Part shown: piece by piece, positions 3,918 through 13,527 of the stretch
Position numbering within the stretch: the stretch's first letter is position 1
Layout of the letters: each line of letters starts with the position of its first letter
Virus record (IMG/VR): IMGVR_UViG_3300033816_000128
Span: 1-42,283 of that record
Length of the DNA: 42,283 nucleotides
Direction: 5' to 3' (one strand)
Origin: a virus
Notes under the pieces: model-generated
What the model saw: only the letters and a program-made list of their open reading frames with translations
Told to the model about the DNA's origin: nothing
The model's database searches: none
Program-made: the position numbers and the translations under genes

Positions 3918-4709
3918 TTACTTACCTCTTAGCACCTTTAATGTTGCTTGATCAACTACACCTGTTACTGGCAAAGAAGAGTTCTTTTGAAAAGACTTAA
4001 CTGCTTTTTCAGTTCCTGGACCAAAACTACCGTCTGCTTTTACCCCTAAAAGTTCTTGAATCTTTTTTACTGATTCTCCCTTTGATCCAACCTTGAATGG
4101 AGTAAACTGCTTCTTTTCTACATTTGCGGGTTGTGAAGTTGTAACAGGTGCTGGTTGTGAAACTGTTCCACCTTTTGAAAGCAGTGGAAGATTTTCTTCT
4201 CCAGCGTATACTGGACGGCCCCAGCCAACAACAGCATTCAAAATACCCTTCTTATTTTTTACATAAGCACGAGTTTTCTCTACGCACATTCCGCCATTTC
4301 TCTGATCTCCCTTTGAAGTTCCTGATGTGTTTCCTTCAATAACTTGGATAGTTCCATCTCCATTGTTCTTGATGCAAATACCAACATGTGAAATACGATT
4401 TACGCCATCATCTGGAAAATCAAAATAAATCCAATCTCCTGGAGTTGGGTCATCATTACGAGCATCTGCCCATCTATTATTCTTCTTAAACCAATCTGCT
4501 GCTGCTACTGTTGAAGCAGTCTTTGGGTACTTCTTTGCATCTAGGCCAGATGTAAACGCACACCAAGAAACAAAGGACTGACACCATGGCTGAAAGTTAA
4601 CACCACTCCACTTGCCATACTTTGTTTCATTATCTTTTGGACCTTCAATAGTTCCAATTTCTTTCTTTGCAATATCAATGATTGCTTCTAGCGAACCCTT
4701 AGTTGTCAT
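3918..4709 (-). CDS. Endolysin: CHAP peptidase plus peptidoglycan-binding domain
   Basis: 263 residues. The N-terminal CHAP domain (about 5-165) carries the catalytic cysteine in PWCQSFVSW (Cys43), the histidine in RISHVGI (His108) and an acidic partner in VIEGNTS (Glu125). A Pro/Val/Gln-rich linker (about 175-205) leads to a PG_binding_1 domain (about 208-262: VGSKGESVKKIQELLGV, FGPGTEKAVKSFQK, VTGVVDQATLKVL). It would cut peptide or amide bonds in host peptidoglycan at lysis. No signal peptide is seen, so release needs a holin; the nearby two-TM proteins are candidates. It has its own promoter at 4765-4793 and a GGAGA ribosome binding site. A virion-associated role is an alternative but less likely. 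Confidence 0.9.
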   Translation of the reverse strand: MTTKGSLEAIIDIAKKEIGTIEGPKDNETKYGKWSGVNFQPWCQSFVSWCAFTSGLDAKKYPKTASTVAAADWFKKNNRWADARNDDPTPGDWIYFDFPDDGVNRISHVGICIKNNGDGTIQVIEGNTSGTSKGDQRNGGMCVEKTRAYVKNKKGILNAVVGWGRPVYAGEENLPLLSKGGTVSQPAPVTTSQPANVEKKQFTPFKVGSKGESVKKIQELLGVKADGSFGPGTEKAVKSFQKNSSLPVTGVVDQATLKVLRGK

Positions 4710-4764
4710 TTTTATCTCCTAATATTAGTGAGCAGTTTAAACACATACTCAGGTGCATATGTCT

Positions 4765-4793
4765 ATTATATCCTATTGGTTACTTTTTAGCAA
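4765..4793 (-). promoter_or_regulatory. Sigma-70-type promoter for the endolysin gene
   Basis: On the minus strand TTGCTA (-35), a 17-bp spacer and TATAAT (-10), reading towards the endolysin start at 4709. The -35 lies in the last codons of hsp20. The leader would be about 50 nt. Confidence 0.65.
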
Positions 4794-5208
4794 CTTTGAT
4801 AGCGATTTCTTTTGGCTTCTTTTCTTCAGGAACAATACGGTCTATATCAATATGTAACATACCGTCCTTCATTTCTGCCCCAGTTACTTCCATATATTCC
4901 CCAAGAGCAAATGATCGTACAAATTTACGACCAGCAATACCCTTGTGAACTACTTCCGCATCTGTTACCTCAACAATCTCACCCTTAATAATCAGGGTTC
5001 CGTTATCCACAGAGATTTTTAAATCATCTTTTGTAAAGCCTGCAATTGCAAGCGATAATCTATATGTATCTTCATCTAGTTTAAGAAGATCATATGGAGG
5101 ATATGATTGTGAGTTTGTTTGATGTGCTGTGTTTAAACGGCTCAACTCTCTGTTGAAGCCAATAAAAAAAGGATCATTGAATAGATCCATAGCGTACTTT
5201 GTTACCAT
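4780..5208 (-). CDS. Small heat shock protein (Hsp20/alpha-crystallin)
   Basis: 142 residues. N-terminal arm with FNDPFFIGFNRELSRL, then an alpha-crystallin domain from about 38 to 128: PPYDLLKLDEDTYRLSLAIAG, FTKDDLKISVDNGTLIIKG, GIAGRKFVRSFALGEYMEVTGAEMKDGMLHIDI, and the C-terminal PEEKKPKEIAI containing the I-x-I-like anchoring motif. It is an ATP-independent holdase that keeps aggregating proteins soluble in the cytoplasm. Phage Hsp20 genes are known, for example in cyanophages, and probably protect virion or replication proteins. It lies between subtilase and endolysin with its own promoter and an operator-like inverted repeat. Good AAAGGGG ribosome binding site. Confidence 0.93.
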   Translation of the reverse strand: MVTKYAMDLFNDPFFIGFNRELSRLNTAHQTNSQSYPPYDLLKLDEDTYRLSLAIAGFTKDDLKISVDNGTLIIKGEIVEVTDAEVVHKGIAGRKFVRSFALGEYMEVTGAEMKDGMLHIDIDRIVPEEKKPKEIAIKVAKK

Positions 5209-5234
5209 TTTATTCCCCTTTCAAGCGAATAAGT

Positions 5235-5263
5235 TAGTGCACCCCCATAAGGCAGGTGCACTA
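5235..5263 (-). promoter_or_regulatory. Operator-like 9-bp inverted repeat in the hsp20 promoter
   Basis: Plus-strand arms TAGTGCACC (5235-5243) and GGTGCACTA (5255-5263), perfectly complementary, 11 bases apart; each arm contains the palindrome GTGCAC with centres 19 bp apart. The repeat begins four bases after the -10 and spans the expected transcription start, so most of one arm would not be in the transcript. That favours a protein-binding operator over an RNA hairpin, and no U-tract follows, so it is not a terminator. Confidence 0.55.
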
Positions 5264-5266
5264 CCT

Positions 5267-5295
5267 ATTATATCACTGTGCTAAAGGCACCACAA
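5267..5295 (-). promoter_or_regulatory. Promoter for hsp20
   Basis: Minus strand: TTGTGG (5295-5290), exactly 17 bp, TATAAT (5272-5267), with a TGA extension before the -10. The -35 is in the last codons of the subtilase gene. Leader to the hsp20 ATG is about 52 nt. Confidence 0.65.
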
Positions 5296-6106
5296 GGTTG
5301 ATAGATACTGACTTTAAATAGTCGTATGTACCCTGATAAGTACCCTTATAATTTTTAGCCCAATGTGCTGCTAGTGCAGCGGTAGATGGAGAGGTTCCCA
5401 TAATTCTTTCTCCTAAAATGTCATATGTGCCAAGAGCAAAGAAATCAATCTGTGGAGACCTATTGCTATAGAGTTCAACTCTATGGTCAGCATTAGATGC
5501 ACCTACTGCAATTGATTCAGAAATACAGGCTGGGTATCCAACTTGATTTGATTTATAATCATTACCTGCTGCAAAAAATGCACCAACATTTAGGCTTTGT
5601 AAATTTGCAATTGTTTTTTGCAAACCACCATTTACAGGGCAATAGTTTGCACCAGTTCTAAACCTTGAGTATTCCACAAAAGAAACAGAAGTTGCTACAA
5701 TATTAAACTTTTTCTTATTAGCAACTACCCAATCAAGTGCCTGCTTTACTGTGCTATTTGAATTTGCAGCAGCATACATAGGATTTCTGTCATTTCTGTC
5801 TGCTGGAATAATACGAATAAAAACAATATTTACATTTGGATTAATTGCTTGTGCAACTCTTACCATTCTTGTTCCATGCTCAAATCCATTTACGGCAGAG
5901 CGTGTTGCAGAGCCAGGACCTTCCATGAAAGTCTGCTTGTTTGGACAACGCTTTTCTTCCATGATGCATACCTCATGAAATACATTTACCTTTGATGTAT
6001 CTACACCAGTGTCAATAATTGCAATTGCAACCTTTTCTTCAGCCTGTACCGCTGGCAAAAATGCAACAGCAAACAGAATTGTAAAAATCCCCACTACTTT
6101 TTTCAC
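5273..6106 (-). CDS. Secreted subtilisin-like serine protease (S8)
   Basis: 277 residues with a signal peptide (MKKVVGIFTILFAVAFLPAV, cleavage probably after AVQA). The triad is in order: Asp32 in IIDTGVD, His77 in FEHGTRM, Ser239 in MGTSPSTAAL, plus the oxyanion Asn182 in FFAAGND. It is therefore a complete, short subtilase without a propeptide or C-terminal extension, roughly the size of a bare catalytic domain. It should be exported through the membrane by the host Sec system. Possible roles are processing of the phage's own secreted proteins, attack on host surface proteins, or help with lysis; none can be chosen from sequence. It follows the 72-residue gene by overlapping signals and precedes hsp20. 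Confidence 0.9.
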   Translation of the reverse strand: MKKVVGIFTILFAVAFLPAVQAEEKVAIAIIDTGVDTSKVNVFHEVCIMEEKRCPNKQTFMEGPGSATRSAVNGFEHGTRMVRVAQAINPNVNIVFIRIIPADRNDRNPMYAAANSNSTVKQALDWVVANKKKFNIVATSVSFVEYSRFRTGANYCPVNGGLQKTIANLQSLNVGAFFAAGNDYKSNQVGYPACISESIAVGASNADHRVELYSNRSPQIDFFALGTYDILGERIMGTSPSTAALAAHWAKNYKGTYQGTYDYLKSVSINLVVPLAQ

Positions 6107-6325
6107 TTAGATCTCCTTTATTTTAAATACTACTTGACATGGGTCGCCCCCTGCTTCCCATTCTGCTTCTTCTTCTTCGCTCATATATGGATCACCATCA
6201 TGAGTATTACAGAACGGTTCTGTTATCCATCCCCGCTCAATTCCATTATCAAGCCAAATCTCAAACTCATTAAAGTCTGATTCATTTTCTTGAATCTTTT
6301 TTAATATGTCGTCAAACTCTTCCAT
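6107..6325 (-). CDS. Small acidic protein typical of actinophages
   Basis: 72 residues, strongly acidic (MEEFDDILKKIQENESDF, SEEEEAEWEAGGDPC). The segment GWITEPFCNTHDGDPYMSEEEEAEWEAGG matches, from memory, a small conserved protein widespread in actinobacteriophages with Cys/His residues that may bind metal. Function unknown. The ATG at 6325 lacks any Shine-Dalgarno and lies six bases after a near-consensus -10 box, so translation is probably leaderless. It directly precedes the subtilase gene, with a stop/start gap of zero. Confidence 0.75.
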   Translation of the reverse strand: MEEFDDILKKIQENESDFNEFEIWLDNGIERGWITEPFCNTHDGDPYMSEEEEAEWEAGGDPCQVVFKIKEI

Positions 6326-6331
6326 ATATTT

Positions 6332-6360
6332 AGTATACTCTCATGCGTTCAAAAAGTCAA
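6332..6360 (-). promoter_or_regulatory. Strong promoter giving a leaderless transcript
   Basis: Minus strand: TTGACT (6360-6355), 17-bp spacer, TATACT (6337-6332), then six bases and the ATG at 6325. The -35 and spacer overlap the last codons and stop of the proteasome-like gene. Transcription should start on or beside the ATG of the acidic-protein/subtilase unit. Confidence 0.7.
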
Positions 6361-6859
6361 CTGGACCAATACAGGATGTACTAAACTGAATAGCACAGCC
6401 AACAGCAAGAGCAAGCCTACGCTTTGGGTCTTTATGATTTTGGGTAGCATGAAGAGAACCCATAGCGTAGTCTGCTCCTGATCCTATGGCAATATAGTCT
6501 CTGTCATAGGAAATCATAGTAAACCCTTCTGCTTCATGCTCATAAAGTTTACCTTTAATACCAATTAAAAGTGATATCTCACTATCTTTACCACCAATAT
6601 CCCATTCATTATAAAATGATTTAAGAGATTTTAAAAACTTTCCATGCATAAATTTATCTAAGTTGCCTTCAGGTGCAGGTGGAATAAAGTTATACTGAAC
6701 AATTTGTGCATCAAATGTTCCTGAATATCCAAAGATGTATGAACCAGACTTCCAAATTTTTGGTTTGTCAATAGACACAATGTAATTGTCTTGTGATGCA
6801 CCACGCTCACCAGCAATATAAACTTTGCCGTCTTTTACTATTCCTGCAACACAGGTCAT
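6341..6859 (-). CDS. HslV/20S proteasome-like Ntn hydrolase
   Basis: 172 residues. The N-terminus MTCVAGIVKDGKVYIAGERG aligns by eye with the beta-type proteasome/HslV start: after Met removal a Thr nucleophile would be at position 1, with a later lysine (SIDKPKIW) where HslV has Lys33, and YIFGYSGTFDAQI matching the GFAGGTAD turn. YIAIGSGADYAMGSL matches HslV IAIGSGGPYA. The Asp17 position is Glu (GER). It would be a single-ring or double-ring cytoplasmic peptidase or a non-peptidase relative of the same fold. No HslU or Mpa-like ATPase is seen, so a partner would have to come from the host. Similar proteasome A/B-type genes occur in some cyanophages and pelagiphages. It has the best promoter in the window and an AAGGGG site. 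Confidence 0.82.
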   Translation of the reverse strand: MTCVAGIVKDGKVYIAGERGASQDNYIVSIDKPKIWKSGSYIFGYSGTFDAQIVQYNFIPPAPEGNLDKFMHGKFLKSLKSFYNEWDIGGKDSEISLLIGIKGKLYEHEAEGFTMISYDRDYIAIGSGADYAMGSLHATQNHKDPKRRLALAVGCAIQFSTSCIGPVDFLNA

Positions 6860-6877: not shown

Positions 6878-6891
6878 TATACTCAAGTATA
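6878..6891. repeat. Perfect inverted repeat over the -10 of the proteasome-like gene
   Basis: TATACT-CA-AGTATA, six-base arms around a two-base centre, covering the -10 hexamer and the likely transcription start of the gene at 6341-6859. It could be an operator, or it may simply reflect two overlapping TATACT boxes. Confidence 0.4.
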
Positions 6892-6914
6892 GCATCTACA
6901 CAAAATGGTGTCAA
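6886..6914 (-). promoter_or_regulatory. Near-consensus promoter for the proteasome-like gene
   Basis: Minus strand: TTGACA (6914-6909), 17-bp spacer, TATACT (6891-6886), then a leader of about 20 nt carrying AAGGGG before the ATG at 6859. Lies entirely in the intergenic gap 6860-6926. Confidence 0.8.
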
Positions 6915-7895: not shown

Positions 7896-9977
7896 TTATA
7901 ACCTCCTTATTGACATAACAGAACTAACAATGTTTGATACTATAATTACTGGGATTATGACTTCTTGAACCTTTTCTCTTTGGTCATCAGTCATATCCTT
8001 TCCCCATTCCGCTGGATTTAGAACCTTTTCAAAATCTATGTTTGTAATTGCTCCCAAAGGATCTGCTAAAAATGCCTCTGTCTGTACTTCTGTTACTGCA
8101 TCTGCTAATGTAAATGGCATTGTGGTTTCTCCTGCATCCCCTGCTCTTTCTGCGAACTCAACAAATGCTGAGGCAAGTGCTGGGTTAGACTTCATCTGCT
8201 CAGCAATCTGTGCAACTTCTGAAGTTTTAATACCAAGGTCTTGTGCAACCTCTTGCTTTGCTTCTTGGGTCAATGCCCTCAGTGTTTGGCTAACTGCTGT
8301 GATTTGTTCTGCAGAAAGAGTAACTAACTTGTTATCTTTGCTTGTAAGGTTGGCAATAACATTAGATAGATCTTCTTCTGTTCCCGTTCCTTTTTCAGGA
8401 ACAAGTGCTGCTAAGACTTCATCAGTAATTTCTACATCTGGTTCATTCCAGGAGTTCTCTTCTGGCTTTGGATCTGGTCCAGGCTCTGGAGAGGGTTCTG
8501 GAGCAGGCTCTTCAGTTGGTTCTGGGGTTGGGGGTTCCTCTGGGGTAGGCTGGTCTGTAGGGTCCACGGTAGGCTCTGGAGAAGGCTCTGGTGTAGGAGG
8601 CTCTTCTGCTGTAGGTTCAGGGCTTGGTTCTGGTGTAGGAGGCTCTTCTGGTGTTGGCTCTGGACTTGGCTCAGGAGTAGGTGGCTCTTCAGCAGTTGGT
8701 TCAGGACTTGGCTCTGGGGTAGGCTGATTGGCTGCAGCGTTTGCTGCTGCTTGAGCAATGGCAGATTGAATTTCTCTTTGTGATTGTTCGTCATAGTAAC
8801 GCCATGCGTTATCAATTGCACTATTGAGATTATTAATTGCTTGCTCGTATCCATCTTCAGCATTATTTTTATTTTGCAATGCCGTTGCAACATTTAAAAC
8901 TGAGTTGTTATATTCATTTGTTTTATTAGTTAGTGTTTGATTGTAACCATTTAATGTTGAAACTGCTTGATTATAAACATTTAGTTTGTCATTATATACA
9001 TCTTGTGCTGAGTTCTTTGCAGCAAGTGCGTTGTTGTAGGCGTTTGTTTGTTCTTGGGTTGCTCCAGATCCATGAGAAAATGTATTAAGATTGCAACTAA
9101 AGTCTTGTCCCCATACTCTTGGGTTGCCAGCATAGTCACAACCTGCACCAGTCCATCCTCCAGGGATAGCCCAGCCAAGATGATAGGAACCTGGTCCTCC
9201 ACCGTTATACCACCATATTTCTACATCTAAAGTTTTGTCTTCACTAACATCATATACGGGAGAGTAGTCACTCCAAGTTGTCCCCTGCTCTACCCAGTTG
9301 TTAACGGCAAGTTGGCCATCTATATACATTCTAAAACCATCATCTGTATATCCCGCAAAGTAGGTTTGTGTAAACCATGAAGGAACTGTTATCTGTCCAG
9401 TAAATTTAACTATAAAGTTTTCGTATCTATTACCGCAAACTGGACGAGTCATATAGTTTCCATTTATTGTTCCACTACATAAGAATTGATCTGTGGCTGC
9501 AAGCCCATTAACTCTAATTAGACTATAAACATCGTATGCCAAACCAGCAGAACCAGCACTGTCTAATGCTTGCTGAGCGTTTGAAAGATTAATGTTGGCT
9601 ACTCCAAGTGCATCGTAGGCATCATTTTTATTGTCTAAAGCAGTGGCTACTGTTACTGTTTGTCCGTCTACTGCTGATTGGGCTAAGTCTTTTTCTTCAA
9701 GTGCCGTTGCTTTTAGGTCAAGGGAGTTGTCATACAGGTCAGAGGTCTGAGTCTGGGTTTCTTTTGCAGATACGGCAAGGTCATACTTATCTTCTGCCTC
9801 TTCAATTAGGGATATAAATTCATCCTGGTATCCAAGGTCGTCTACGCTGTCGTTTAGTTCTTGTATTTCTTGGGCTGCAATCGTTAGTGGGTCGTCTGAA
9901 TTAGCCTCTGTTGGTGCTATAAATAACCATCCAAAAGCAAGTAAAATAACCGTAGATATACGCAAGAGTTTATTCAA
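7896..9977 (-). CDS. Secreted PA14-domain surface protein with Pro-Glu repeats
   Basis: 693 residues from a TTG at 9977 (AGGAG upstream). A signal peptide (MNKLLRISTVILLAFGWLFI..., cleaved near TEA-NS) is followed by a coiled coil (30-140), a PA14-type beta-sandwich (about 146-276: YFAGYTDDGFRMYIDGQLAV, WSDYSPVYDVSEDKTLDVEI, YHLGWAIPG), a second coiled coil (300-400), a Pro-Glu-rich stretch (415-510) containing four 14-residue repeats, a globular helical region, and a hydrophobic C-terminus (VIIPVIIVSNIVSSVM) that may anchor it. PA14 domains bind sugars. The protein should be exported and displayed on the host, or be a virion decoration exposed after lysis. Receptor mimicry, cell aggregation or exclusion are options. 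Upstream terminator and extended -10 make it an own unit. Confidence 0.8.
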   Translation of the reverse strand: MNKLLRISTVILLAFGWLFIAPTEANSDDPLTIAAQEIQELNDSVDDLGYQDEFISLIEEAEDKYDLAVSAKETQTQTSDLYDNSLDLKATALEEKDLAQSAVDGQTVTVATALDNKNDAYDALGVANINLSNAQQALDSAGSAGLAYDVYSLIRVNGLAATDQFLCSGTINGNYMTRPVCGNRYENFIVKFTGQITVPSWFTQTYFAGYTDDGFRMYIDGQLAVNNWVEQGTTWSDYSPVYDVSEDKTLDVEIWWYNGGGPGSYHLGWAIPGGWTGAGCDYAGNPRVWGQDFSCNLNTFSHGSGATQEQTNAYNNALAAKNSAQDVYNDKLNVYNQAVSTLNGYNQTLTNKTNEYNNSVLNVATALQNKNNAEDGYEQAINNLNSAIDNAWRYYDEQSQREIQSAIAQAAANAAANQPTPEPSPEPTAEEPPTPEPSPEPTPEEPPTPEPSPEPTAEEPPTPEPSPEPTVDPTDQPTPEEPPTPEPTEEPAPEPSPEPGPDPKPEENSWNEPDVEITDEVLAALVPEKGTGTEEDLSNVIANLTSKDNKLVTLSAEQITAVSQTLRALTQEAKQEVAQDLGIKTSEVAQIAEQMKSNPALASAFVEFAERAGDAGETTMPFTLADAVTEVQTEAFLADPLGAITNIDFEKVLNPAEWGKDMTDDQREKVQEVIIPVIIVSNIVSSVMSIRRL
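8556..8723 (-). repeat. Four tandem 42-bp repeats coding for a Pro-Glu linker
   Basis: The stretch encodes about four copies of PTPEPSPEPT(A/P)EEP, the fourth copy diverging at its end (VDPTDQ). Several shorter PTPEEP-like copies follow to about 8450. The unit is likely an extended, rigid spacer in the PA14 protein, and copy number could change by recombination. Confidence 0.75.
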
Positions 9978-11225: not shown

Positions 11226-13001
11226 TTAAATTAATTTGTATTCATCTAGGAAATCCTTGATATCTTCAGGAATTTCCCTAGTTTCTAATTCTACCATATC
11301 CCTTTGCTTTTGTGCAAGTCGGGATGCAGTAGACCAGGTATGGATCTCAATTTCTAGGTTGGAATCCTTACTGGTATGGGATATTGCTCCAAATACCGCC
11401 CCACAAACGGCATCTGCTAAGTCCTTAGATTTCTTGCGTGGGTGGTCAACTCTGTTATTTCTCATAATCTTGAGTTCACTCATCTCTTCAAGCAATAAAG
11501 GAATCATTGGCATAGCAACTCTTTCTTCATATATCATCATTGCTAAATCTTCATAGTGTTTTTTAGCAACAGAAACAGTATCAGTTCTTATTCCAACAGC
11601 CTTTAATTCATTTTGAATATCAAAAGACTGCCATCTATCAAACGATACCATTCCAATATTAAATCCTTCTCTGCGAAGGTTTTGTATCCATAGTTTTACC
11701 TCAGATAGGTTAACTGGGCCTTCTACCTTTGGCTCCCACCAAGCAACGGCATCAACAATAACAACTGGTGCCACCTGCTGGTAATCTTTAATAACCTGAA
11801 TATTAACCCACTTATCAACATGTGCAATTGCTACTGCACACTTGTCATGCTTTTGTGCAAGGTCAGCATGAACATAATAAGTTTTATCTGGATCTGGCTT
11901 AAAGCCTGGATCAAATCTTCTATGACTATCCACAGGATTTCTTAAGGTCATACATCTTTCTAGTTTATCTTTTTGCTTAAAGAAAGCATCAGATGAATAT
12001 GTCGGGGTACAAAGGAAGCGCATCATTGCATCTCCCATATCTTTAAAGAAAGACATTTTAAAATCTTCAATACTTCTAGTAGGGTTTACTTCCCATGTAG
12101 GTCTTTTTAATGCATATACCTTTGGTATTTTATATGAAACAATATGGTCTTCTTCCCATACAATTTCAAGTTGATTACTTGAATCATCATGTGGTAAATC
12201 GGGATTAATTATATAGGTGTGTCTACGTTCTATTACATCTTTATCCATGATTACATCGTCATACCGCTTTGAAATAAAGTCACCCTGATATCTTGGGAAA
12301 GAAAGTAAAACAACCTTGCCTAGGTCTGGGAAACGAGAATCTACTGTACCGCTAAAGGCTTTATAGATATTTTCAGCAGTCTTTCCTTGATCATTTCCAG
12401 TACCTACCTCAGATGCAAACCCAGAAATTTCATCAAGGACTGCCATGAGTAAGTTCAAACCCTCATGTGACTCACGCTCTGAGTGTCCAGAATAAACAGT
12501 AATTGATTTATCAAACTCAACGCTGTCTGCTTTTGGATTATACTTGCCTGCAAACCATGGAGATCTTTCAATCTTGCTTTTAAAACCTTTGAAGAAAACG
12601 TTCTTAGCCTGTTGAGCGTTTACTGCAACGTTAATAATATCTATAGCGTCTCCGCTTGGCTTTCCAAAATATCTGGCAGGGTCTTTAAGGCAAAGTAACT
12701 TATAAACAACATAAGCACAAGCAACAGTGGAAACAAAATCTTTGCCACTACCTTTGCCCAACTGTAAAATGATTTCGTTTTTTGTATATTTTGCATAATA
12801 TTTGCTACCTTCTACTGATCCCATTAACTCTTCTAAGTCTTCTTTTTTATAAATCTGACTCATAGCCTCAACAATGTCGTATTGAATATCAGATAATGAT
12901 GGCTGCCCAAGAAAATCTGGAGACTCAACAAATGTCTTTGCGTCTACAGGTATTTCGTCAAAGTTGTTTTCCTTAAGTACTTCTAGGAAATCATTGAACA
13001 T
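11226..13001 (-). CDS. terL: Terminase large subunit
   Basis: 591 residues from ATG at 13001 (the TTG nine bases upstream is less likely). ATPase: Walker A variant LGKGSGKDF (about 82-88, with Asp in place of Ser/Thr after Lys, as in several large terminases) and Walker B LMAVLDEIS. C-terminal nuclease (RNase H-like): ADLAQKHDKCAVAIAH, GMVSFDRWQS and KDLADAVCGAVFGA supply the acidic metal ligands. It cuts concatemers and pumps DNA into the prohead using ATP. The start overlaps the end of the small subunit gene by 11 bases. Unusually it is followed by surface-protein genes, not by the portal gene. Confidence 0.93.
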   Translation of the reverse strand: MFNDFLEVLKENNFDEIPVDAKTFVESPDFLGQPSLSDIQYDIVEAMSQIYKKEDLEELMGSVEGSKYYAKYTKNEIILQLGKGSGKDFVSTVACAYVVYKLLCLKDPARYFGKPSGDAIDIINVAVNAQQAKNVFFKGFKSKIERSPWFAGKYNPKADSVEFDKSITVYSGHSERESHEGLNLLMAVLDEISGFASEVGTGNDQGKTAENIYKAFSGTVDSRFPDLGKVVLLSFPRYQGDFISKRYDDVIMDKDVIERRHTYIINPDLPHDDSSNQLEIVWEEDHIVSYKIPKVYALKRPTWEVNPTRSIEDFKMSFFKDMGDAMMRFLCTPTYSSDAFFKQKDKLERCMTLRNPVDSHRRFDPGFKPDPDKTYYVHADLAQKHDKCAVAIAHVDKWVNIQVIKDYQQVAPVVIVDAVAWWEPKVEGPVNLSEVKLWIQNLRREGFNIGMVSFDRWQSFDIQNELKAVGIRTDTVSVAKKHYEDLAMMIYEERVAMPMIPLLLEEMSELKIMRNNRVDHPRKKSKDLADAVCGAVFGAISHTSKDSNLEIEIHTWSTASRLAQKQRDMVELETREIPEDIKDFLDEYKLI

Positions 13002-13527
13002 CGTGGACAACTGTTATTACCTCTCCCTCTTTTGCAATAGAGGAAAGTCTTTGCATAATAATGTCACGTACCTCTGGATGAGATGAAGCAATATCTCTTA
13101 GAATTGCAACAAGAACCTCTTGTCTTTTTTCAATCGCAACCATTTCTTCTGCAAGTTCTTTGTTCTCAAGAAGCCCAGCCTTTTGAAGCATATCAATACG
13201 CTTGGACTCAATATCCATAACTAGTTTAATTGCTGCAGTCTTTGCACCAAGATTATTAGTCATTGACGCTTCATCAATAACTTCATATGATTTTGATATA
13301 AGTTTTGTATAGTGTGTGTCTGCTCCTACTAGTGCTTCTTTAGCACGAGCACGAATTGCTGAGTTGTCTGAGGCCATAGCCTTCCACTCATTGATAAGCG
13401 TGACGACACGAGTGCGTGGAATATCCAATTCTTTTGAGATAACTGTTGGGTCATTACCCTTAAGGTATTCAGAAACTACTGTATTTACCTGATCAAGGTG
13501 CTTAACTAGGTCTTCTTCAGTTGACAT
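12991..13527 (-). CDS. terS: Probable terminase small subunit
   Basis: 178 residues. An N-terminal HTH (about 20-50: YLKGNDPTVISKELDIPRTRVVTLINEWK) is followed by a long helical region with heptads (ALVGADTHYTKLISKSYEVIDEA, VMDIESKRIDMLQKAGLLEN) and a C-terminal helical/acidic tail. DNA-binding HTH plus oligomerisation helices and its position immediately upstream of, and overlapping, terL fit the packaging-initiation subunit that recognises pac or cos. Sequence families of small terminases diverge strongly, so the call leans on context. Confidence 0.75.
   Translation of the reverse strand: MSTEEDLVKHLDQVNTVVSEYLKGNDPTVISKELDIPRTRVVTLINEWKAMASDNSAIRARAKEALVGADTHYTKLISKSYEVIDEASMTNNLGAKTAAIKLVMDIESKRIDMLQKAGLLENKELAEEMVAIEKRQEVLVAILRDIASSHPEVRDIIMQRLSSIAKEGEVITVVHDVQ

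Follow-up and report, generated by a model that had tools for sequence, protein, structure and literature searches.

Four adjoining minus-strand open reading frames (ORFs) at positions 4780–6859 of a virus contig from IMG/VR (IMGVR_UViG_3300033816_000128; the whole stretch of 42,283 bases, with unclosed ends, is hereafter the window) encode an HslV-like proteasome homologue, a small acidic protein, a subtilase (S8) and the small heat shock protein Hsp20. We propose that these genes make up a conserved accessory locus of independently transcribed units, each with its own proposed role, in a probably actinobacterial and mostly freshwater phage lineage of ~110 kb, and we judge the chance that this account is right to be about even. 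We further propose, tentatively and a little short of even confidence, that a ROSE-type thermometer leader is common to the hsp20 mRNAs of unrelated tailed phages (this lineage, cyanophage-like and methylophage Kyanoviridae, pelagiphages and a rhizobium phage) and would give phages their own heat-sensing control of a chaperone, placed in this lineage beside an ATPase-free proteasome homologue with a conserved acidic companion. A first-pass annotation of this DNA had named the genes a proteostasis cluster, and their adjacency and families hold: PF00011 and phrog_432 for Hsp20, PF00082 for the subtilase and phrog_1040 for the HslV-like protein, with the acidic protein matching no Pfam or PHROG family.

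Median dN/dS against relatives lies at 0.12–0.18 for each of the four ORFs, which are therefore not chance ORFs but real genes under purifying selection. Scanning with the 172-aa HslV-like protein recovered 66 viral loci, mostly 75–100% identical in protein, on contigs that reach 114 kb and conserve the gene order; with the acidic protein as query, 80 loci were retained, 79 of them newly fetched and examined. No near phage was found by megablast of window positions 1–25000. The DNA polymerase shares 55% identity with its counterparts in Streptomyces phages, for example BillNye, and the DUF7455 domain encoded near the locus is mainly actinobacterial; on these two grounds the host of the lineage is probably an actinobacterium.

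Separate conserved promoters led us to reject a single proteostasis operon (Table 1). The first-pass annotation credited every unit with a good promoter of its own, and this is so for hslV and the acidic gene, whose promoters recur in every distinct upstream region compared; for S8 none was found in the promoter comparison of loci, and hsp20 has an extended −10 without a −35. The −35 of the acidic gene is embedded in the last hslV codons, and its −10 ends 6 nt before the ATG in the window and 6–9 nt before it across loci, so near that a leaderless mRNA is predicted. The extended −10 of hsp20, TGNTATAAT, is kept whatever gene stands upstream, and in the window its TGA doubles as the S8 stop codon. 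Promoter-like sites in the window number 48 against 40.5 expected (sd 5.9), which is no clear excess, so that conservation rather than scan score is the evidence for these promoters.

Table 1 Features of the locus in the window.
Feature	Position	Strand	Basis
hslV promoter, TTGACA-N17-TATACT	6886..6914	-	score of at least 10/12 in 38/38 distinct upstream regions vs 0.8% of shuffles
hslV-like gene, putative group-I (AAH/BPH-like) proteasome homologue, 172 aa	6341..6859	-	phrog_1040, BPH match, triad, fold, omega 0.126
Acidic-gene promoter, TTGACT-N17-TATACT	6332..6360	-	score of at least 10/12 in 28/28 distinct upstream regions; pattern in 75/79 wider loci
Acidic 72-aa protein	6107..6325	-	linkage to hslV, alignment
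Shine-Dalgarno of subtilase, AAGGAG, within the end of the acidic gene	6113..6118	-	sequence
Subtilase (S8), 277 aa, GTG start	5273..6106	-	PF00082 1.2e-11, motifs, slot tally
hsp20 extended −10 promoter, TGATATAAT	5267..5275	-	TGNTATAAT invariant in 27/27 aligned loci
hsp20 leader hairpin I	5237..5261	-	pairing and covariation
hsp20 leader hairpin II, ROSE-like	5210..5232	-	UCGCU:Shine-Dalgarno pairing, fold z, conservation
hsp20, IbpA-like small heat shock protein, 142 aa	4780..5208	-	PF00011 2.3e-18, phrog_432 1.7e-37, NCBIfam IbpA 6.9e-30

The expectation that the genes would stay linked in relatives is borne out for three of them. An hslV homologue stands upstream of the acidic gene in 72 of 72 loci with at least 650 nt of upstream sequence (directly adjacent in 55, with an insertion between in 17), and hsp20 lies downstream of this pair in most of 28 representative loci; of 66 loci with the acidic gene, 40 have hsp20 within 3 kb of it. 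The subtilase, the fourth gene, can be exchanged or missing. Linkage inside one phage lineage can stem from shared descent rather than from function, a point that tells against our proposal, and it is a serious possibility, if one that we somewhat doubt, that the region between the terminase side and the lysis and nuclease genes is an accessory-gene hotspot that tolerates insertions and whose genes act singly. The S8 slot is empty or replaced in many relatives, the promoters are separate, and genes for a PstS-like protein, glutathione peroxidase, a 2OG-Fe(II) oxygenase, a carbamoyltransferase and HNH nucleases interleave near the four; in other phages, moreover, the proteasome homologue sits among nucleotide-metabolism or unrelated genes with no hsp20 nearby. 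A hotspot without joint function accounts poorly, however, for the unbroken linkage of hslV to the acidic gene, for an hsp20 that is still downstream in most representatives despite insertions, and for the filling of one slot by two unrelated protease families. Either way, the coordinated cluster of the first-pass annotation gives way to separate transcription units in a region of lysis and accessory genes, and nothing connects the four genes to tail assembly, where they had been suggested to keep large tail proteins soluble. That annotation did not mention the hsp20 leader, the swapping of hslV types or the slot for a protease.

The 172-aa protein matches phrog_1040 (‘peptidase HslV family’, E = 3.5e-20), and sequence and profile searches give weak but consistent scores to BPH, HslV and 20S beta subunits, BPH (5ovu, E = 7e-4) being the closest sequence match in the PDB. 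As the first reading had noticed, Thr directly follows Met, and it is accompanied by Glu17 and Lys33; this triad (Thr1, Asp/Glu17, Lys33) is kept in 35 of 35 family-tree sequences and also by 73 distinct phage proteins, in two of which a 2-aa insertion offsets it. An AlphaFold model of modest confidence (pLDDT 62.8) retrieves 20S proteasome subunits, BPH and HslV in Foldseek at E ~3e-7 to 1e-6 with probability 1.00; its predicted helices (50–57, 67–85, 133–137 and 145–159) include the H1/H2 and H3/H4 pairs and lack a C-terminal extension. Together with profile–profile comparison (99.7% with Sinorhizobium, Streptomyces, Paraburkholderia and Bacillus plasmid homologues, whose own AAH identity is read from their distribution), the model predicts the suspected proteasome (Ntn-hydrolase) fold. 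The protein shares with HslV (ClpQ) 25% identity, the same start and triad spacing, and the fold, so that the HslV-like core stands; identity with HslV proper was rejected, the score being 19 bits against cut-offs of 137–158 in the curated NCBIfam HslV models, and no HslU was found in the seven related contigs searched. PPH was likewise rejected, as the protein has 172 residues with both helices predicted, versus ~140 residues without helix H2 in PPH. The missing ATPase partner is also confirmed within the scope of our search: seven related contigs of 54–114 kb, which may be incomplete, yielded no AAA_2 unfoldase, whereas the same search was positive in 14 of 14 control genomes. A generic AAA match, where checked, was a small APS-kinase/AAA_33-like protein and was rejected as an unfoldase.

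We file the protein as a putative AAH-like group-I proteasome homologue. It shares with AAH, BPH, PPH and phrog_1040 a compact subunit of ~170 aa with Thr1/Asp17/Lys33, no propeptide and no dedicated AAA+ protein, and, as for AAH, its nearest cellular relatives among those found, from tblastn of plasmids, are plasmid-borne in Sinorhizobium (alpha-proteobacteria) and Streptomyces (actinobacteria). Scans of bacterial genome contigs with phage profiles or proteins revealed no cellular relative, and an alignment of distant homologues yielded no usable stretch. Fuchs 2021 (PMC8665760) found no AAA+ partners for the whole family of such homologues, no suggestive gene context and no actinobacterial phage with AAH; our set differs in the Glu that replaces Asp17 in many type I members (see below), in its conserved neighbourhood of acidic gene and hsp20, and in its probably actinobacterial phage carriers. 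Phage homologues are widespread (158 records), among them Actinomycetia phage DSL-LC01 and OX376640 (LanE43-AprE7), presumably the Ca. Planktophila phage E7 described in PMC10202952, and a Gordonia phage protein matches in structure. No annotated hsp20 stood alongside in the HslV-like gene neighbourhoods inspected in other phages. On a Sinorhizobium fredii plasmid (L156:3001-3546) the homologue lies between nifQ and iron-sulfur assembly genes/nifS, and in Vibrio phage V6Aob (L128:2283-3528) a peptide deformylase gene, which could help to expose Thr1, stands two genes before the HslV-like gene.

In the proposed mechanism, the HslV-like protein would lose its Met and so expose Thr1, and would probably assemble into an HslV/BPH-like ring that works without a phage AAA+ unfoldase; its likeliest substrates would be unfolded or partly unfolded proteins in the dying host. 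BPH offers a partial precedent, as its Thr1 is exposed and reacts with epoxomicin, it lacks an ATPase partner, and one species has it in an operon with the chaperone Hsp33 (PMC5777263); our protein resembles it as closest PDB sequence match, in lacking an ATPase and in having a chaperone neighbour, and differs in that the similarity is distant and the neighbours are others. Two points count against this mechanism: BPH is inert in peptidase and casein assays (PMC5777263), so that proteolysis by the phage protein is not assured, and confidence in the model is modest.

The hslV gene comes in two types, type I (172 aa) and type II (174–176 aa), which are sister groups ~44% identical, and exchange of the type leaves the neighbours constant (acidic protein 97%, S8 89%, Hsp20 97%). 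Three loci (L164, L165 and L167) are ~89% identical to the window in nucleotide sequence over 4180–6395 and diverge thereafter, placing the endpoint of exchange at window position 6395, ~55 nt inside the hslV 3′ end and just before the −35 of the acidic gene; the GP[VI]D conserved at the C terminus of the HslV-like protein is thus partly promoter DNA of its neighbour. Such swapping of types beside a constant acidic protein, S8 and Hsp20 might be expected if hosts evolved resistance to a counter-host factor, that is, if the HslV-like protein removed one or a few specific host proteins of defence or regulation, and specific action has a precedent in connectase, a protein ligase of the same superfamily (PMC8665760). 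We consider this unlikely: dN/dS within type I is low (0.067–0.202), without a sign of diversifying selection, and no link to defence was seen.

The acidic protein has a conserved core, W-x3-G-x3-G-W-[IV]-[ST]-x-P-[FY]-C-x-T-H-[DE]-G...G-G-D-P-C, and an AlphaFold model (pLDDT 75.7) without a fold match. We searched for its motif in cultured actinophages and rejected the idea that it is widespread there, as the one phage returned, Mycobacterium phage Aminay, has a gene of only weak similarity (E = 0.2, 39% over 51 aa). Expressed from its own embedded promoter, the protein would probably act as a regulator or adaptor. A stricter version makes it the dedicated partner of the HslV-like protein (a pore cap, adaptor or inhibitor) that replaces the ATPase, which would agree with the invariable linkage, an omega of 0.133, the conserved promoter, strong acidity and invariant C/H residues. 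This version seems improbable to us, as the same acidic sequence stands beside two very different hslV types, which argues against tight co-evolution; insertions separate the two genes in 17 of 72 loci, the protein has no fold match, and Aminay is not among the HslV-like matches listed.

The subtilase starts with GTG immediately after the stop codon of the acidic gene, and its Shine-Dalgarno lies within the end of that gene, suggesting translational coupling. It bears an N-terminal signal-like segment and Asp/His/Ser motifs; among relatives, D, HG and GTS are present in 22 of 28, and six have TSGA at the Ser site. Of 57 distinct arrangements, 31 have S8 in the slot that separates the acidic gene from hsp20, 3 have an M6 metalloprotease there and 13 have other genes; in the remaining 10 the slot is empty. 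The M6 protein (TIGR03296, 3.8e-15), unrelated to S8, also starts with a signal-like segment and takes the place of the subtilase at, for example, L028:8762-10210 and L059:3832-5286. Whichever protease fills the slot would be secreted and active outside the membrane, and its gene lies near lysis genes; possible roles outside the cell include removal of receptors, assistance to lysis and harm to competing phages. Reduction of phage titres by a protease that an actinobacterium secretes has been reported (PMC13175485).

In Hsp20, the alpha-crystallin domain (PF00011) spans residues 44–138 and the alignment shows a C-terminal IAIKV/IKIK motif of the I/L-x-I/L kind. Cyanophage Hsp20 is a working holdase in vitro, and the protein resembles those of cyanophages and pelagiphages (PMC3037559, PMC5028025) in phrog_432 membership, in identity (~34–41%) and in the leader layout of those sampled; it differs in its actinobacterial-type phage lineage and in its linkage to a proteasome homologue. 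The leader folds into two hairpins (window fold z = −3.2). In hairpin I, 98.8% of aligned cells are paired and four pairs show double changes, with 15 double-change cells compared to 2.4 in shuffles, and slid controls fail. In hairpin II, UCGCU (5228-5224) pairs with the Shine-Dalgarno AGGGG (5219-5215), the helix being interrupted by a G that is either unpaired or opposed; UCGCU is present in 50 of 50 distinct leaders of the lineage, and all five pairs are possible in 27 of 27. UYGCU occurs near the Shine-Dalgarno in only 7 of 299 genes of these phages, three of the seven being hsp20. We consider an intrinsic terminator ahead of hsp20 unlikely, as a U-run is missing and the −10 of hsp20 precedes the hairpin. 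We propose that hairpin II hides the ribosome-binding site of an IbpA-like holdase and that temperature or stress would open it for translation.

ROSE thermometers have in common a UYGCU stretch near the Shine-Dalgarno (PMC9450479), and a two-hairpin ROSE-like plan is described for Pseudomonas ibpA leaders (PMC3669281). Inspection of seven unrelated phage hsp20 leaders revealed a hairpin followed by UYGCU and AGGA/AGGAG in six. Rfam ROSE_3 matches three of the seven over the full model length, at the right place and strand (E = 6.5e-4, 0.047 and 1.3), and a model built from the leaders of our lineage (R2) finds the hsp20 leader of pelagiphage HTVC103P (E = 0.0012 in 372 kb), a match that stems partly from the common TATAAT, and ranks Melnitz next in a small search. 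The window's leader is thus like ROSE (RF02523; Pseudomonas ibpA, PMC3669281) in preceding a small heat shock protein gene, in its two hairpins with UYGCU opposite the Shine-Dalgarno in the second, and in the compensatory changes of hairpin I; unlike ROSE, it gives no hit at the curated threshold, has a UGCC-containing hairpin I of phage type, and follows an extended −10 in place of sigma-32.

Several results weigh against thermosensing. The three ROSE_3 matches (34.1, 26.8 and 21.1 bits) all fall under the curated 43, a leader from the same lineage as the window (L020) scores 11.2 bits, and Rfam gave no meaningful hit in the window region, whose hsp20 leader had no ROSE match. Hairpin II has been altered just once, between two clades; computed accessibility of the hsp20 Shine-Dalgarno (0.40) is not unusual against the median of 0.47 in these phages, and computed melting of the window leader is weak below 50 °C. 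Because the window leader has no ROSE hit, shows no exceptional occlusion and melts shallowly, we advance its function as a ROSE-like RNA thermometer as a supported proposal and not as a result. The leader may instead, though we have clear doubts, be no thermometer, with hairpin I shielding the mRNA 5′ end and hairpin II incidental or protein-binding. Hairpin I does begin near the predicted +1, and the lysin leader pairs its Shine-Dalgarno too, in keeping with this alternative as are the unexceptional accessibility and shallow melting; what it leaves without a reason is UYGCU opposite AGGR in 50 of 50 lineage leaders, its recurrence before the Shine-Dalgarno in six of seven unrelated phage hsp20 leaders, and ROSE_3 matches that are full-length, correctly placed and on the correct strand.

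In the window annotation, gene order runs from TerL (11226-13010) through a large secreted-looking protein, small membrane-protein and lipoprotein genes and the four genes of the locus to a CHAP lysin, a zinc-ribbon protein, DUF7455 and an endonuclease. The secreted-looking protein (7896-9977, 693 aa) combines a long linker of PEPSPEPT repeats with a hydrophobic segment at the C terminus and is highly variable among relatives. For the lysin gene, the stretch 4707-4808 contains a TATAAT promoter and a leader in which pairing of the Shine-Dalgarno is likewise predicted; the match to the model of hsp20 leaders is weak (E = 0.28). Relatives differ in where the CHAP lysin gene lies, some having it upstream of hslV and others downstream of hsp20 (L017, L019, L020, L039 and L041 compared with the window). 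In L024, L028, L041 and L053, the region of the locus contains genes for carbamoyltransferase, glutathione peroxidase, a PstS-like binding protein and a 2OG-Fe(II) oxygenase, with many HNH nucleases close by.

The protein families described here were already known. The literature that we searched holds no description of the locus, of the exchanges or of a phage ROSE-type hsp20 leader, which is not proof of novelty. Phage proteasome homologues had been without known function or informative gene context (PMC8665760), and a constant acidic companion together with two exchangeable hslV types provides a concrete, testable system for one of them. If our proposal for the leader is true, phages whose hosts differ widely would be using a bacterial heat-shock regulatory device to adjust a chaperone in infection, and the old puzzle of why hsp20 is so frequent in aquatic phages would become directly testable by temperature.

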